From the NCBI GenBank assembly GCA_025352225.1, contig JANXTT010000054.1:1-64000 (forward strand): DNA of 64,000 nucleotides, read 5' to 3'. Within the stretch, counting starts at the first letter, position 1; each line of letters starts with the position of its first letter. The notes under the pieces were generated by a model. It worked only from the letters and a program-made list of their open reading frames with translations, was not told where the DNA came from and searched no databases. The DNA is from Mucilaginibacter sp. (GTDB taxonomy: Bacteria > Bacteroidota > Bacteroidia > Sphingobacteriales > Sphingobacteriaceae). Made by a program: the position numbers and the translations under genes. Of this stretch, positions 3,611 to 31,218 are shown piece after piece.

Positions 3611-3692
3611 GTGACCACTCCATTCCGGCGCAAGCTGACCACCCATTCCGGGCGAAACTGACCAGGGCATTCCGGGGGAAATTGACCACCCC
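3611..3692. repeat. Left-end internal repeats of IS21 element
   Basis: Three imperfect units of about 22-23 bp (around 3621-3642, 3643-3665 and 3667-3689), each of the form CATTCCGG-n-GAAACTGACCAC. They correspond to the multiple terminal repeats bound by the IstA transposase. Confidence 0.8.
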
Positions 3693-3755: not shown

Positions 3756-5306
3756 ATGGCCAACTTAACAATCAGCATGAGTAAGATTAGAAAGATACTA
3801 AAGATGTACAGCCAGCAGCGGGCGATAATGACCATAGCTGCCCAGGCCGATGCATCGAGAAACACCGTAAAGAAGTACATAGCAGCTTTTAATGACAGCG
3901 GCTTTACCTTTGAAGAGGTTAACGCACTGAACGACAAAGAGCTGGAAGATTTGTTCGGTAAAAGCAGGGAACACCCGCCTAACGCACGTATGCAGTCCAT
4001 GCTGCGCTGCTTTCCCCACGTCGATAAAGAACTCAAACGAACTGGCGTTAACCGGCAGATGCTATGGGAAGCCTACTATAAAGAGTTTCCTGACGGCTAC
4101 CAATACAGCCAGTTTTGTTTTTATTATAACCAATGGAAGGCCAGAGTAAACCCGACCATGCACATGGATCACAAGGTCGGTGACAAGCTGTACGTTGACT
4201 TTGCCGGTGAAAAGATGAGCTATACGGACAAGGAAACCGGGGAGATCATACCTGTAGAGGTTTTTGTAGCTATTCTGGGTGCCAGTCAGTTAACCTATGT
4301 AGAGGCTGTTATGAGCCAGCAAAAGGAAGACTTTATAGCGGCCTGCGAGAATACCCTGCACTTTATCGGCGGCGTTCCCGCCGCCATTGTGCCGGATAAC
4401 CTGAAAGCTGCAGTAACCAAAAGCAGCCGCTATGAACCTACCCTGAACGAAACGTTTGAAGACTTCGCCGACCATTACGGTACAACCATTCTACCAGCGC
4501 GGGCGTACCGCCCGCGCGATAAGGCATTGGTAGAAGGTGCCGTTAAGATCATTTATACCAAGATCTACGCCCCTTTAAACAAACATGTCTACCATTCTTT
4601 AACAGAACTCAATACAGCGATCTGGCAGGCCCTGGAAGTCCATAACAGCCAATTGCTTAAAGGTCGCAACTACAGCAGAAAGCTACAGTTTGAAGAGATA
4701 GAGCGCCAAACCCTGGCACCACTGCCTGTTCTGCGCTACCAGTTCAAAAAGCAATTCCAGGCCAGGGTGATCAAGAACGGCCACGTTAACCTCGGCCCGG
4801 ACAAGCACTATTACAGCGTTCCTTACCGCTATATCGGCAAACGGGTCAAGCTGTTATACTCGCGCACCATTGTAGAGATCTACTCCAACTATGAGCGTAT
4901 CGCATTGCACCCTCGCAATAAAAACCCTTATGGCTATACCACTGACAAAGAGCATATGGCCAGTACCCACCGCTTTAAAAGTGACTGGACACCAGATATG
5001 TTTTTGGATTGGGCAGCCTCCATTCATGAGGATGTCAGGCTGTATATCCTTCAGATACTGGAACGTAAACAACACCCGGAACAGGCTTACAAGTCCTGCC
5101 TGGGGGTACTCGGCTTTGCTAAAAAAGCAGGGAATGAACGGTTAACAGTGGCTTGCCAGCGGGCATTGAGTTACGGCGTCTATAACTATAAAACGATACA
5201 AACCATACTGGAAAACAAGATGGATAACTATGAGGAAAGCTTATTTGCCGATGAGTTGCCTATGCCTGATCATGGTAATATCCGGGGAGAAGACTATTAC
5301 AAATAA
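3756..5306 (+). CDS. istA: IS21-family transposase IstA
   Basis: A 516-residue DDE transposase. The N-terminal helix-turn-helix region (about 10-45) is followed by the RNase-H-like integrase core with D148 (YVDFAG), D214 (VPDNLK) and E260 (KALVEG), all intact. A C-terminal beta-barrel-like region and a basic tail follow. The length is normal for IstA. An alternative ATG seven codons in (3777) is equally plausible. The gene is followed after 20 nt by istB. Intact frames suggest the element may still be active. Confidence 0.93.
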   Translation: MANLTISMSKIRKILKMYSQQRAIMTIAAQADASRNTVKKYIAAFNDSGFTFEEVNALNDKELEDLFGKSREHPPNARMQSMLRCFPHVDKELKRTGVNRQMLWEAYYKEFPDGYQYSQFCFYYNQWKARVNPTMHMDHKVGDKLYVDFAGEKMSYTDKETGEIIPVEVFVAILGASQLTYVEAVMSQQKEDFIAACENTLHFIGGVPAAIVPDNLKAAVTKSSRYEPTLNETFEDFADHYGTTILPARAYRPRDKALVEGAVKIIYTKIYAPLNKHVYHSLTELNTAIWQALEVHNSQLLKGRNYSRKLQFEEIERQTLAPLPVLRYQFKKQFQARVIKNGHVNLGPDKHYYSVPYRYIGKRVKLLYSRTIVEIYSNYERIALHPRNKNPYGYTTDKEHMASTHRFKSDWTPDMFLDWAASIHEDVRLYILQILERKQHPEQAYKSCLGVLGFAKKAGNERLTVACQRALSYGVYNYKTIQTILENKMDNYEESLFADELPMPDHGNIRGEDYYK

Positions 5307-10793: not shown

Positions 10794-10986
10794 ATCGTTT
10801 TTTGTACGTATGATTTTTGAGGTGGCGCGATGGGTGCACTTTATAGTGTTTTATCCACCTCTCCATCTGATACAGAACTACAGTCATCTTTTATTTTAAT
10901 TCTGTTTATTTAAGCAGGAACCACAGTCGTCATTTGGGTCTGAATGATTTACGGTACAATTAAATGTTAGGTATTATTGCAGGGAA
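10794..10986. other. Intergenic stretch before the fic repeats
   Basis: AT-rich DNA without a supported gene. Nothing recognisable was seen apart from a faint, diverged extra repeat unit near 10963-10986. Confidence 0.35.
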
Positions 10987-11106
10987 TACTAATTATAGCA
11001 CAGCAATATTTACTAACTTTGACCCTGCGGTAAATACTAATTACAACACAGCAATGTTTACTAATTTCATCACAATGGTATTTGCTAATTATAGCACAAG
11101 AACAAT
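10987..11106 (+). repeat. Five imperfect 24-bp tandem repeats upstream of fic
   Basis: Units start at 10987, 11011, 11035, 11059 and 11083, each beginning TACTAA or TGCTAA and ending near an ATT or GTT. The last unit contains TGCTAATTATAGCA, a 5-bp inverted repeat with a 4-nt spacer; the first has the same with one mismatch. Unit 2 also creates TAACTTTG, a match to the -7 box. The array ends 28 nt before the fic start codon. Operator sites for the AbiEi-like N-terminal domain of the encoded protein are the most likely role, by inference. Confidence 0.8.
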
Positions 11107-11134: not shown

Positions 11135-12697
11135 ATGGCAACACCAAGAGAAAAGTTTGCTGAAGCATTGAAGTTACTAAAGGTACTTCAGGACAAAGGG
11201 CATGTAGCCATACACACCGATGAAATCCCCAACCGAGTTCATAGGGAAATCCTTCTAAAAAATGGCTTTCTTAAAGAAGTAACCAAGGGATGGTATATTG
11301 CTGCAGACCCAATGGAAAGGGATGGCGAAACCACCTCGTGGTACAGTTCATATTGGGACTTTTGTGCCAAATTTCTTGAATATAAATATGATTCTGATTG
11401 GTGTTTGTCGGCAGATCAATCAGTACTTATACACGCTGGTAACTGGTCTGTACCACCACAGTTATTTATCCGGTCACCACATGCGAATAACAAACCAACA
11501 CCGTTACCTCATAATACCTCGTTGTTTAACCTGAAAACAGATCTCCCAACCGGGAACCAACTGATAATTGAACGAAGAATAAGAATGTACAACTTGCAAG
11601 CTTCATTAATTTATAGTACCGCAAGCATGTACGGTAAAAGCAGTATAGATGCCAGGACTGCTTTGTCTTTAATAAGAGATGCTTCGGAACTATTGCCAGT
11701 GCTCTTGGAAAATGGACACACTAAAATAGGTGGCAGATTGGCTGGTGCATTTAGAAATATTCAAAGGGACAGAATAGCAGACCAGATCATGGAAACCATG
11801 AAACAGGCTGGCTATGATATTCGTGAAGAAGACCCTTTTGAAAATAAACTGGCCATTAATCTGTCCACCCGCGATCGTTCTCCTTTTGTAAACAGGATCA
11901 AGCTAATGTGGCAGCAAATGAGAGAAGTAGTTATAAAAGACTTCCCAGTGACCCCAGGTATCCCAAAAGATCATGAAGCCTATCTGAAAAACGTCGAGGA
12001 GGTTTACGTGACGGATGCTTACCACTCTTTATCTATTGAGCGGTACAAAGTAACCCCTGAATTAATTGAGCGGGTTAGCACCGGACAATGGGACAATAAC
12101 GCAACCGAACAAGATAAAAAACAAAAAGATGCGATCGCAGCACGCGGGTATTATCAGGCGTTTCAAGTAGTTAAAGAAACCATATTCCAAGTATTGAATA
12201 ATGCAAATCCCGGTAGCCAAAGTGAAAAAGATCACCAGAGATGGTATCGGGAACTCTTTGATCCGAGCGTAGCTGCTGGTATTTTGAAAGCAGCAGATCT
12301 CGCAGGTTATCGCAGCCACCAGGTTTTCATTGGTGGCTCCAAGCACGTGCCATTAAGTGTAGATTCGATGCGCGACGCTATGCCGGTACTATTCGAGTTG
12401 CTTGAGGCCGAAGCTGAAGCTTCTGTAAGGGCGGTCCTTGGTCATTTTATTTTTGTATTTATACATCCTTACATGGACGGGAACGGGCGGGTGGGCAGAT
12501 TTTTAATGAATATAATGTTTGCGTCCGGCGGTTATCCATGGACAGTAATCCCTGTTGAGAAAAGATCGGAATACATGTCAGCCCTGGAAAAAGCAAGCAC
12601 TGAATCGGACATAAGTGCCTTTTCAAAATTCATTGCATATTTAGTAAATGAAGGGCTAAAAGGCACACCAGTAGCAACTCTGCCCGGAACGAAATAA
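11135..12697 (+). CDS. AbiEi-like antitoxin domain fused to Fic AMP-transferase
   Basis: A 520-residue protein. Residues about 10-130 resemble the AbiEi/type IV antitoxin winged helix (HREILLKNGFLKEVTKGWY, then LSADQSVLIH). The C-terminal half is a Fic domain with an intact motif H444PYMDGNGRVGR455, so nucleotidyl transfer, usually AMP, to protein hydroxyls is expected. An inhibitory helix is present as S298LSIE302R, which has the S/T-xxx-E core but Arg in place of the usual Gly or Asn. The protein thus carries both a likely DNA-binding regulator and a self-inhibited toxin-like enzyme. The 24-bp repeat array lies immediately upstream. Confidence 0.85.
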   Translation: MATPREKFAEALKLLKVLQDKGHVAIHTDEIPNRVHREILLKNGFLKEVTKGWYIAADPMERDGETTSWYSSYWDFCAKFLEYKYDSDWCLSADQSVLIHAGNWSVPPQLFIRSPHANNKPTPLPHNTSLFNLKTDLPTGNQLIIERRIRMYNLQASLIYSTASMYGKSSIDARTALSLIRDASELLPVLLENGHTKIGGRLAGAFRNIQRDRIADQIMETMKQAGYDIREEDPFENKLAINLSTRDRSPFVNRIKLMWQQMREVVIKDFPVTPGIPKDHEAYLKNVEEVYVTDAYHSLSIERYKVTPELIERVSTGQWDNNATEQDKKQKDAIAARGYYQAFQVVKETIFQVLNNANPGSQSEKDHQRWYRELFDPSVAAGILKAADLAGYRSHQVFIGGSKHVPLSVDSMRDAMPVLFELLEAEAEASVRAVLGHFIFVFIHPYMDGNGRVGRFLMNIMFASGGYPWTVIPVEKRSEYMSALEKASTESDISAFSKFIAYLVNEGLKGTPVATLPGTK

Positions 12698-12796: not shown

Positions 12797-13015
12797 AACA
12801 GTCATATCATTAGTGATGCAGCTAGCGGAGATCACGATAGCCCGACAGTTATCACCGATGATGCTGTAAATGATGCTGTAAGTGATGCTGTAAATATTCA
12901 GGTACGAGATAGGTTAGTAGAAAAATTAAAATGGATTCGAAAGCATAGTGGTGTAGCAATCAAATGTGGTAAAATTATAATAACGAAACGGGGTATTTAT
13001 ATAATAATCGATTAA
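12797..13015 (+). pseudogene. C-terminal remnant of a wHTH regulator
   Basis: An open frame of 72 codons with no start codon and a stop immediately before it. It encodes DDAVNDAVSDAVN followed by RLVEKLKWIRKHSG and a short beta-rich end. Repeated D-A-V-N/S linkers before a winged helix are typical of the C-terminus of AlbA_2/RecG-like ATP-binding regulators in Bacteroidota. The linker DNA is a 12-bp repeat, three units at 12860-12895. The N-terminal part is missing. Confidence 0.5.
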
Positions 13016-28799: not shown

Positions 28800-31218
28800 C
28801 TTCAACAATTATTTTTTTAACTTTTTGGTACATAAACGAAACAATTAGCAACAGTACACCCAAACAAAAGAAGGCCGCAATTTTACCCGCCGGCGGAATG
28901 TTTTGAATATCAAATGCAAATAGCTTAAACAACGTGATGGAAAATAGGGTTAAGGAGATAATTCGTAATGTGCTTACTTTATTACGCATACCCAGCCACA
29001 TCAGCGCAAATGATGCTAATCCCCATAATATGGGTAACCCTACTTTAATATAAACAGTTTGGATGCCCTCAATAAGGTTTGTTTTTGAGTAAAATATAAG
29101 GTTTGCAGCCAAACAAATTTCGAGGCTCAAAAATAAAACTATTCCGCCAGCTATTATCCAGGTGGCCGCTTTTTGAAACTCTTCTGGTATTTGATTTTTA
29201 GCTATTAAAATTAATTGGTAAAACAATAAGGCTACAAAAACAACACCCCACCAATGCGCTATAAAATGCATAGTTGATATTTTGTTTTGTGTAAGCATGT
29301 AGTATTGTACATTAAAAAACTGCGGAGTGAATAAAAAGTAGGTTACTATACAGATACTCAATAAGGCAGTACTTACCATCCAAGAGAGTTGGATGCCCGC
29401 AACCCTTTTTGAAAGGATATGGAAAATGTAAATGAACGCGGGTACATAAAGCATCAGGTATAAACTATTTAACTCTATGCCCGGGTAATGGTTTAAAAAT
29501 TGGTGATTGATCTCCAGTAAACCAGTTAGGAATAAAAGCAGAAACGCCGAATATTTGAATACACGGGCGTTAATATTAATATTATAAATCTCTTCAGACT
29601 CATCTTTACCCATCAAGACAGATAACAAATAAGAGCTTAAAGCTGTAAAAAACGTTGTTATAAAACCTTTATTGGCAATAATGGCAATGGTTTTTGTGGT
29701 GTCACTATAAATATTTATCCAATCTATCCATAAGCTTGTAATCATCGCACCCCATATAATTAACGAGGTAAGTTTCATTAACTTAATATTCGACTTTTGG
29801 TACAACCAATACAACAATACTGTTTCTGCCGCCCAAAACAAAGTAATGTTATGCCCGTGTAATTGTATTGGCGCGGTAAGTGATATAAACGTTAATGTGA
29901 TACCAATAAGTAAATAAAGGATATTGGTATCGACTTTTTTATTTTTGAATAGCAGGTAAGACAGTGCCAGGTTAATTACCCCCAAACTTGCAGAAAATAG
30001 CCCACGCCATTGCTCCATATGCATAACTGTGAACAGGTAAAGGCCAACTGCAAAGTATAATGCTGTATTGGTAAGCAGGATGGTAAAATCTGACGCGACG
30101 AATTTTTTATTCTCCCTTACGTTATTGGCCACATTTATTGAAAAGAATAACAGGTATAAAATACTGGCATATATAAACCCGGTAAAATAAGTTGGTGCGG
30201 TTAGCGTAAATAAAACCACCGAAAATACAATTACCGTTAACGCAAAAGCAGCAGCATTTAATATGCGCCATGATTTATTATAAGCTATAACCAATAAACC
30301 CGCGTTCAATATAATCAGATAAATAAATAGCGCATGATAGTTTGCATGATCGCCGCTTACTATAAATGGGCTTGATAAGCCACCTATTAACGCAATTATG
30401 GCAAGTTCCTGTTTGTCATAAAGCAAGGAGAGTACAACAGCAAAACTGGTAATAACGATAAGGATAATAAATGAAGTTGTTTGGTTAAATAAATGAAACT
30501 GATGATAAGCCAGGGTAATGGTAAAGTACAGAACAGCAAGCCCACCGCCTACTAAAACCGAGCTGAATGCCTTGTAGCTGTTACGGAGCTTATGCGCAAT
30601 ACCGATAAGTATCCCGGCGCAAAGTACGCCAATTCCTACGCGGCCAACCGGGCCTATCCAGTTGTTATCAATGGCGTATTTTACAAAAAAACCAATGGCT
30701 AAAACCAGGATGGCAATACCTATTTTATTAATGAGGTTCTCTCCAATAAATTTTTCCAGATCAGGGTAACGTTCAAAAAAAGATAGTTCAGGCTCAGATG
30801 GTTTGAAAGCGGGAGTTGGAGAGGTGCTACTAGTTCTTAGAGGCCTCCTGATGGTGGATAATGGGTCGGTAATAACCTCTTTATGGTGCTCAATGTTTTC
30901 AGGAAGCCAGGGTTTGGGCTCCTCTGGTATGCTTTGTTTCTCTTTTATATCATCAGCTACAATTATAGGTTTAGCTATCGGTTCATTAAATGGTTTAGGG
31001 GTTACAGGAACAGATTTACCATCCGGAATTTGTTTTATTAAATGCTGTAGGTCAATTATTCTGCGTTCCAGCGCATCTATATCCGGAATTTGTTTTATTA
31101 AATGCTGCAGGTCAATTATTCTGCGTTCCAGCGCATCTATTTTTTCATTATAACTGCTTTTATTTGTAATCAGTAAATAAATGATCAACACAAAAAGCAC
31201 TACATATAAAATATCCAT
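28777..31218 (-). CDS. DUF2339 polytopic membrane protein
   Basis: 813 residues: one N-terminal helix, a coiled-coil stretch, a Pro-rich linker (about 60-150), and then about two dozen membrane helices. LEKFIGENLINKIGIAILVL and VGRVGIGVLCAG are typical of DUF2339. The coiled coil contains a 20-residue unit repeated twice in tandem, encoded by a 60-bp duplication with one mismatch. The gene pairs with the DUF3999-like gene. Confidence 0.88.
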   Translation of the reverse strand: MDILYVVLFVLIIYLLITNKSSYNEKIDALERRIIDLQHLIKQIPDIDALERRIIDLQHLIKQIPDGKSVPVTPKPFNEPIAKPIIVADDIKEKQSIPEEPKPWLPENIEHHKEVITDPLSTIRRPLRTSSTSPTPAFKPSEPELSFFERYPDLEKFIGENLINKIGIAILVLAIGFFVKYAIDNNWIGPVGRVGIGVLCAGILIGIAHKLRNSYKAFSSVLVGGGLAVLYFTITLAYHQFHLFNQTTSFIILIVITSFAVVLSLLYDKQELAIIALIGGLSSPFIVSGDHANYHALFIYLIILNAGLLVIAYNKSWRILNAAAFALTVIVFSVVLFTLTAPTYFTGFIYASILYLLFFSINVANNVRENKKFVASDFTILLTNTALYFAVGLYLFTVMHMEQWRGLFSASLGVINLALSYLLFKNKKVDTNILYLLIGITLTFISLTAPIQLHGHNITLFWAAETVLLYWLYQKSNIKLMKLTSLIIWGAMITSLWIDWINIYSDTTKTIAIIANKGFITTFFTALSSYLLSVLMGKDESEEIYNININARVFKYSAFLLLFLTGLLEINHQFLNHYPGIELNSLYLMLYVPAFIYIFHILSKRVAGIQLSWMVSTALLSICIVTYFLFTPQFFNVQYYMLTQNKISTMHFIAHWWGVVFVALLFYQLILIAKNQIPEEFQKAATWIIAGGIVLFLSLEICLAANLIFYSKTNLIEGIQTVYIKVGLPILWGLASFALMWLGMRNKVSTLRIISLTLFSITLFKLFAFDIQNIPPAGKIAAFFCLGVLLLIVSFMYQKVKKIIVEDETIKHP
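31021..31140 (-). repeat. 60-bp tandem duplication inside DUF2339 gene
   Basis: Two adjacent 60-bp units (31021-31080 and 31081-31140) differ at a single base (T/C at position 28 of the unit). Each encodes the same 20 residues, beginning IDALERRIID in the coiled coil, so the frame is kept. Confidence 0.97.

Follow-up and report, generated by a model that had tools for sequence, protein, structure and literature searches.

A 24-bp direct-repeat array conserved upstream of AbiEi-like–Fic fusion genes is most likely an operator for the gene's own N-terminal module

S. agalactiae AbiEi and Rv2827c are autorepressors that act on their operons via 23-bp sites; according to the available parts of the reports, these sites form inverted repeats, the two members of a pair being separated by 3 or 13 bp (PMC3985639, PMC7319586). 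CccR of Yersinia pseudotuberculosis, a FIC and HTH protein, represses its own gene, according to the available part of the report (PMC9755527). Here, we describe a gene from a 64,000-nt stretch of Mucilaginibacter sp. DNA (the window), which encodes an AbiEi-like module fused to a Fic domain (AbiEi-Fic) and is preceded by a tandem array of 24-bp units. The first-pass annotation of this locus had invoked AbiEi antitoxins that repress their own promoters through repeats. As worded, this precedent does not fit, since in the available parts of the reports the AbiEi operators are 23-bp inverted repeats (PMC3985639, PMC7319586), whereas the array consists of direct repeats. A search on AbiEi, Fic, repeats and operators that covered papers outside subscription found no description of an array upstream of AbiEi-Fic.

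The array and the gene with all its parts lie on the + strand. A direct reading confirms five units at 10987-11106 in an exact 24-bp register, which leave 28 nt to the ATG at 11135: TACTAATTATAGCACAGCAATATT (unit 1, 10987-11010, with core TACTAA and a CACA block), TACTAACTTTGACCCTGCGGTAAA (unit 2, 11011-11034, diverged), TACTAATTACAACACAGCAATGTT (unit 3, 11035-11058), TACTAATTTCATCACAATGGTATT (unit 4, 11059-11082) and TGCTAATTATAGCACAAGAACAAT (unit 5, 11083-11106, with core TGCTAA). TRF reported 10985-11098 with period 48, 2.4 copies and a score of 135. The repetition is far above chance: the best self-match segment reaches 35 (lag 48) or 25 (lag 24), whereas none of 100 dinucleotide shuffles exceeded 15 at any lag. 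Exact matches of TRCTAAYTWYANCACA in the own genome are located in four of the five units and at one place elsewhere. The unit pattern with up to two mismatches occurred at 219 places (153 for the reversed control), and this regulon search revealed no second array among the 100 of the 219 places listed.

Two further features ascribed to the array did not hold. The inverted arms TRCTA-N4-TAGCA are present in unit 1 (with one mismatch) and unit 5 but absent from units 2-4, and the palindrome is not the conserved feature, because TRCTANNNNTAGYA lies upstream of only 6 of the 66 representatives of the family described below; it was therefore ruled out as the repeat unit and dropped as a functional element. 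Binding along one face of the helix is not supported by the geometry. B-DNA has ~10.5 bp per turn, so that 24 bp correspond to ~2.3 helical turns, and neighbouring units are therefore rotated by ~100 degrees. Other repeats in the window are a 12-nt repeat, ATGATGCTGTAA, with 3.2 copies at 12858-12895, shortly 3' of the AbiEi-Fic gene, and a tandem duplication of 60 nt with 98% matches at 31021-31140.

The gene (11135-12697) encodes a protein of 520 aa, in which Pfam at E<=1 detects only Fic (residues 371-461, E 1.1e-10), while PADLOC matched SoFic and candidate defence profiles through the Fic part (best E 7.2e-21). The AbiEi family of Pfam was found in none of the 63 family members at E<=0.1, with other weak matches in a few, and a sequence search of the PDB with the N-terminal profile gave nothing at E<=10. 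The AlphaFold2 model has a mean pLDDT of 92.2; since the VIA search with the whole model covered mainly the Fic part, residues 1-245 were also modelled separately (mean pLDDT 93.5). For this N-terminal model, Foldseek ranked the AbiEi antitoxin 6y8q first (E 7.9e-5) and matched the AbiEi homolog 1zel with E 3.8e-3. VIA aligned 225 residues to 1zel (Z 10.4, rmsd 4.4) and 166 residues to 6y8q (rmsd 5.2) with a Z of 8.3 that is little above unrelated rows (7.5). By predicted fold only, residues 1-245 are like AbiEi antitoxins, in agreement with the AbiEi-like N-terminus of the first-pass annotation, yet Pfam gives no AbiEi match.

The Fic domain (codons 250-510, 11882-12664) has its closest solved fold in human FICD (4u04; VIA Z 22.4, rmsd 2.8, 217 aligned). 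Its catalytic motif HPYMDGNGRVGR (codons 444-455, 12464-12499) is intact, and the H, P, D, G, N, G, R and R of HPFx(D/E)GNGRxxR are conserved in 63 of 63 homologs. The Fic inhibitory motif SLSIE (codons 298-302, 12026-12040) is identical in all 63 aligned homologs. The Fido fold, HPxxDGNGRxxR and the inhibitory S-xxx-E are common to AbiEi-Fic and to class II Fic proteins such as FICD and SoFic. AbiEi-Fic differs from these in its N-terminal AbiEi-like module and in the residue after the glutamate: the full class II motif preceding the Fic core is (S/T)xxxE(G/N), and the last position is R in 36 and G in 20 of the 63 proteins (R in the window protein).

A search of 149 genomes with the N-terminal profile gave 11 places, spread over 10 genomes. 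Nine are in frames of 516-540 residues, like the AbiEi-Fic fusion, and the remaining two are partial (L111, in a 162-aa frame, and L112). As to a partner gene for an AbiEii (DUF1814) nucleotidyltransferase, the + strand contains no ORF of at least 80 aa from the AbiEi-Fic gene to 13412. Neither a recurrent partner nor AbiEii was annotated beside the gene in 12 plasmid regions, whose gene tables are incomplete and contain hypothetical proteins. The own genome also harbours a second wHTH-Fic fusion of 503 aa (L002; G000 contig 95:311-553) with an N-terminus that is DUF6088-like by eye; its upstream region lacks a 24-nt array, the best lag being 21 with a score of 9, and shows by eye a single inverted repeat, so that this looks like a parallel fusion.

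The relatives come from genome contigs (20 loci), viral contigs (one locus), overlapping whole-genome draws (19/395 phylum genomes at E 1e-30, 39/400 order and 21/395 class genomes at E 1e-60) and plasmids (79 records, 12 of them read); phage records gave no match at E<=1e-10. From 98 tblastn starts, removal of four duplicates (L001, L024, L042, L044) resulted in 94 loci with 86 distinct upstream sequences, while matches without the N-terminus (L035, L038, L043, L102) and other Fic genes (L002, L003) stand outside the set. Thinning at 90% protein identity resulted in 66 representatives. For each locus the best self-match was determined over lags of 8-60 within 200 nt upstream of the gene.

The best lag was 24 in 62 of the 94 loci, 48 in 14, 23 in 10, 47 in two and another value in six (L008, L022, L037, L045, L096, L101), and 81 of the 86 distinct upstream sequences had lags of 23, 24, 47 or 48. 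Among the representatives, lags 24, 48, 23 and 47 were best in 49, 7, 4 and 2 cases, and L008, L045, L096 and L101 were without a clear period. Upstream regions of homologous genes share the 24-bp-type period in 62 of 66 cases; this comparison, proposed in the first-pass annotation as one that could refute its reading, did not do so. All 100 shuffles of the own upstream sequence were beaten at 76/94 loci and in 59/66 representatives. The array-bearing family spans Bacteroidota as well as Alpha-, Beta- and Gammaproteobacteria. Array length in the 62 scored representatives ranges from 1.7 to 8.8 periods (median 3.9), and the distance from the array end to the start codon from 1 to 142 nt (median 29). 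Alternate units are more alike, at 10985-11098 as well as at the other loci with lag 48 as the best, which is due either to a 48-nt duplication or to two classes of site. Upstream of the Fic genes L005 and L006, a stretch common to both arrays is by eye displaced by 24 nt in L006, away from the gene, so that these close relatives may differ by the gain or loss of a single whole unit. L008-L013, L022 and L023 have nearly identical upstream regions and proteins across Terrimonas, Sediminibacterium and Olivibacter, which points to recent transfer, and the most degenerate arrays include theirs.

Since AbiEi_4 (PF13338) was nearly absent from the 149 genomes (1/149), DUF6088 (21/149) was used as control. 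One DUF6088 locus with a short upstream region (L149) was left out and the PF13338 locus added, giving 21 control antitoxin genes of the same class (20 DUF6088 and one AbiEi_4, several with guessed start codons). None of these had a best lag of 23 or 24, and one had 48. Inverted repeats above shuffles preceded 8/21 of the AbiEi-type controls vs 8/66 of the Fic-family representatives. Lags of 23, 24, 47 or 48 occurred before seven of 125 other ORFs at these loci, two of them with scores of at least 12: one is the family array itself, located between the L083 Fic gene and its divergent neighbour, and the other consists of the repeats before an istA-like transposase gene of the window. The latter repeats of ~24 nt (3612-3691; TRF period 24, 3.4 copies) precede the IS21-like istA at 3756-5306, named by eye, and IS21 ends carry repeated sites. 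No such array was present at the two other Fic genes of the own genome (L002, L003).

Unit profiles were built for the 62 representatives with a self-match score of at least 12, aligned by rotation only (L008, L045, L096 and L101 were left out). All 62 fit the leave-one-out consensus better forward than reversed. The unit letters differ between clades: the core in columns 9-15 is variable (TACTAA, AACCTAA, AAGCTAA, AATTGT, ACTTGT, CAAAGT and others), and a CACA block at the unit end, running into the next unit, is commoner. For 59 loci (alignment A3, without L021, L039 and L055), 509 protein windows, each 11 residues long, were analysed for covariation with the unit, and the values were stratified according to distance over the rest of the protein. 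Columns 1-8 covary best with windows that begin at residues 28-35 (the top eight; best r 0.46), at the predicted winged-helix recognition helix (residues 34-42, 11234-11260); over the Fic part (260 windows), the mean is -0.01, the sd 0.08 and the maximum 0.21. The top eight windows for the core begin at 118 and 123-129 (best r 0.34 for 126-136, Fic maximum 0.15) and are located within or beside the predicted strands 109-134 of the second AbiEi-like domain (11459-11536). In a label permutation of residues 108-136 against the core (r 0.34), 0/2000 permutations were as high. Columns 16-18 gave no signal (best r 0.19, in the Fic part). Columns 19-24 show a third, weaker and unexplained peak with windows from 223-230 (r 0.37, or 0.39 in another analysis; Fic maximum 0.28).

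Pairs with >70% identical Fic parts show a mean distance in columns 1-8 of 0.19 (n=59), 0.30 (n=118) and 0.47 (n=139) for 0-1, 2-3 and 4-6 differences at six helix residues. The mean core distance over the same groups is 0.17, 0.29 and 0.38 and grows with helix differences too, so that the pair test alone cannot separate the blocks. The covariation result also depends on the block borders. With other borders, the helix signal is mainly on a block that unites CACA with the unit's first three columns (partial r 0.417), compared to only 0.113 for helix vs core (14/999 permutations), and within an array this linking block is not attributable to one particular neighbouring core. Permutation and stratification reduce the share of common ancestry in these values, without removing all of it. 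Two elements of the AbiEi module, the recognition helix and the second-domain hairpin, track the unit beyond overall relatedness. The earlier proposal of a link between N-terminal module and array is strengthened in so far as the unit covaries with the presumed DNA-reading elements, from which we infer DNA contact.

The period is conserved, and the unit letters change together with protein elements that are predicted to contact DNA. The most likely role of the array is therefore that of a self-control switch: an operator to which the AbiEi-like module of the same gene would bind head to tail, which would lead to negative autoregulation of an autoinhibited AMP-transferase. Period, orientation, covariation and predicted fold are results of this analysis, while binding, repression and autoinhibition are what we infer. 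The five units would be tandem, same-direction binding sites for the N-terminal module of the protein encoded directly downstream, with one protomer per 23-24-bp unit. The recognition helix may read one block of the unit and the second-domain beta-hairpin the variable core, as their covariation suggests. Several protomers bound head to tail over the promoter would keep transcription of the AMP-transferase low, by analogy to the AbiEi precedents, and the internal inhibitory helix with its conserved motif may further restrain Fic activity. One gene would then carry repressor, toxin-like enzyme and inhibitor.

A weak candidate for the promoter itself is the box TAACTTTG in unit 2 (11014-11021), located 121 nt before the start codon. 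It matches TAnnTTTG, presumably the Bacteroidota -7 promoter consensus, and no -33 box could be paired with it. TAnnTTTG lies no more than 120 nt from the start in 28 of the 54 representatives outside the plasmid set (mostly Bacteroidota, and one viral contig), compared to a mean of 3.9 and a maximum of 7 in simple shuffles. In 24/50 of such representatives a box is inside the array, where a bound protein would cover the promoter. Since the unit's own composition adds to these counts, they give weak support.

The operator reading has to be weighed against other functions of the array. The array could be the protein's own binding site and yet serve mainly for activation or, like iterons or centromeres, for maintenance of a plasmid or other element. 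Presence of the gene on 79 plasmid records and arrays of up to 8.8 periods, beyond the need of a simple repressor, are in line with this possibility, which we regard as unlikely: several homologs (e.g. L061, L066, L080, L085) are on contigs of 4-7 Mb and so chromosomal, the array precedes the AbiEi-Fic gene in the same direction, and we know of no replication or partition role of AbiEi modules.

Binding of another host regulator, or a role of the repeats as promoter parts, with the likeness to the protein due to shared ancestry, appears quite improbable. Units resemble each other where the proteins do (simple correlation with the rest of the protein 0.42-0.45), and the boxes inside arrays would suit promoter parts. 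However, once protein distance is stratified out, windows of the AbiEi module reach much higher values than the Fic part, both for columns 1-8 and for the core, and Alpha-, Beta- and Gammaproteobacteria retain the period in units of different letters.

Tandem repeats directly before the toxin gene are also a feature of type III toxin-antitoxin loci (ToxIN), which AbiEi-Fic resembles in having repeats upstream of a toxin-like gene, and transcribed repeats could thus provide an RNA antitoxin for the Fic toxin. We consider this very unlikely. Of the four arrays that were folded, L090 and L049 have somewhat more structure than their shuffles (z -1.9 and -2.8), but the window array (z 0.35, or 0.59 with the stretch to the start codon) and L056 (z 0.06) do not, and the RNA antitoxin was not adopted, as the four show no consistent RNA structure. 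Moreover, ToxN is replaced by Fic, the toxin being no ToxN-like RNase according to Pfam, and the unit covaries with a DNA-binding-like module. A selfish or neutral repeat arising from slippage, to which the one-unit shift between L005 and L006 and the almost exact arrays of L049 and L078 would conform, is hardly credible and already contradicted by the conserved period, which is kept over two phyla although copies in many arrays have diverged, while such lags are rare before other ORFs (7/125).

Autorepression by AbiEi via 23-bp sites, with a monomer site of about unit length, and autorepression by CccR argue for the head-to-tail operator. AbiEi-Fic and AbiE have the two-domain fold (residues 1-245), ~23 bp per site and a module directly downstream of the sites in common. 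In contrast to the inverted pairs of AbiE with their gaps, as given in the available parts of the reports, AbiEi-Fic has gapless direct repeats with a median of 3.9 periods, and it is fused to Fic. Since no partner gene was seen, and neither an inverted operator nor a match to the Pfam AbiEi family, AbiEi-Fic was not filed as type IV AbiE. The half-sites of S. agalactiae resemble the unit strikingly by eye; when they were scored with the profile of the family, 435 and 54 out of 1000 shuffles did at least as well, and this likeness was therefore not used as evidence. With CccR, the proposed system shares a FIC enzyme and repression of the own gene through a fused DNA-binding domain, but in the available part of the report CccR has its HTH at the C-terminus and one 10-bp inverted repeat with a 26-bp spacer (PMC9755527).

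AbiEi-type modules thus also exist apart from the AbiE pair, joined to a Fic AMP-transferase in a single polypeptide; this fusion occurs in Bacteroidota and Proteobacteria and is often plasmid-borne. In the plasmid records listed, the labelled genes are annotated just as 'Fic family protein', except for one split gene. It is conceivable, with a small chance of being correct, that the array itself is the 'antitoxin' and holds a head-to-tail row of AbiEi-Fic protomers silenced. If so, loss or breakdown of the DNA, as in plasmid loss or phage attack, would free active AMP-transferase, and the number of units would set the amount of enzyme held. For the family as a whole, conserved site spacing and changing letters provide a natural data set for co-change of protein and site, and the alignment gives a first indication of the unit part that each protein element reads.
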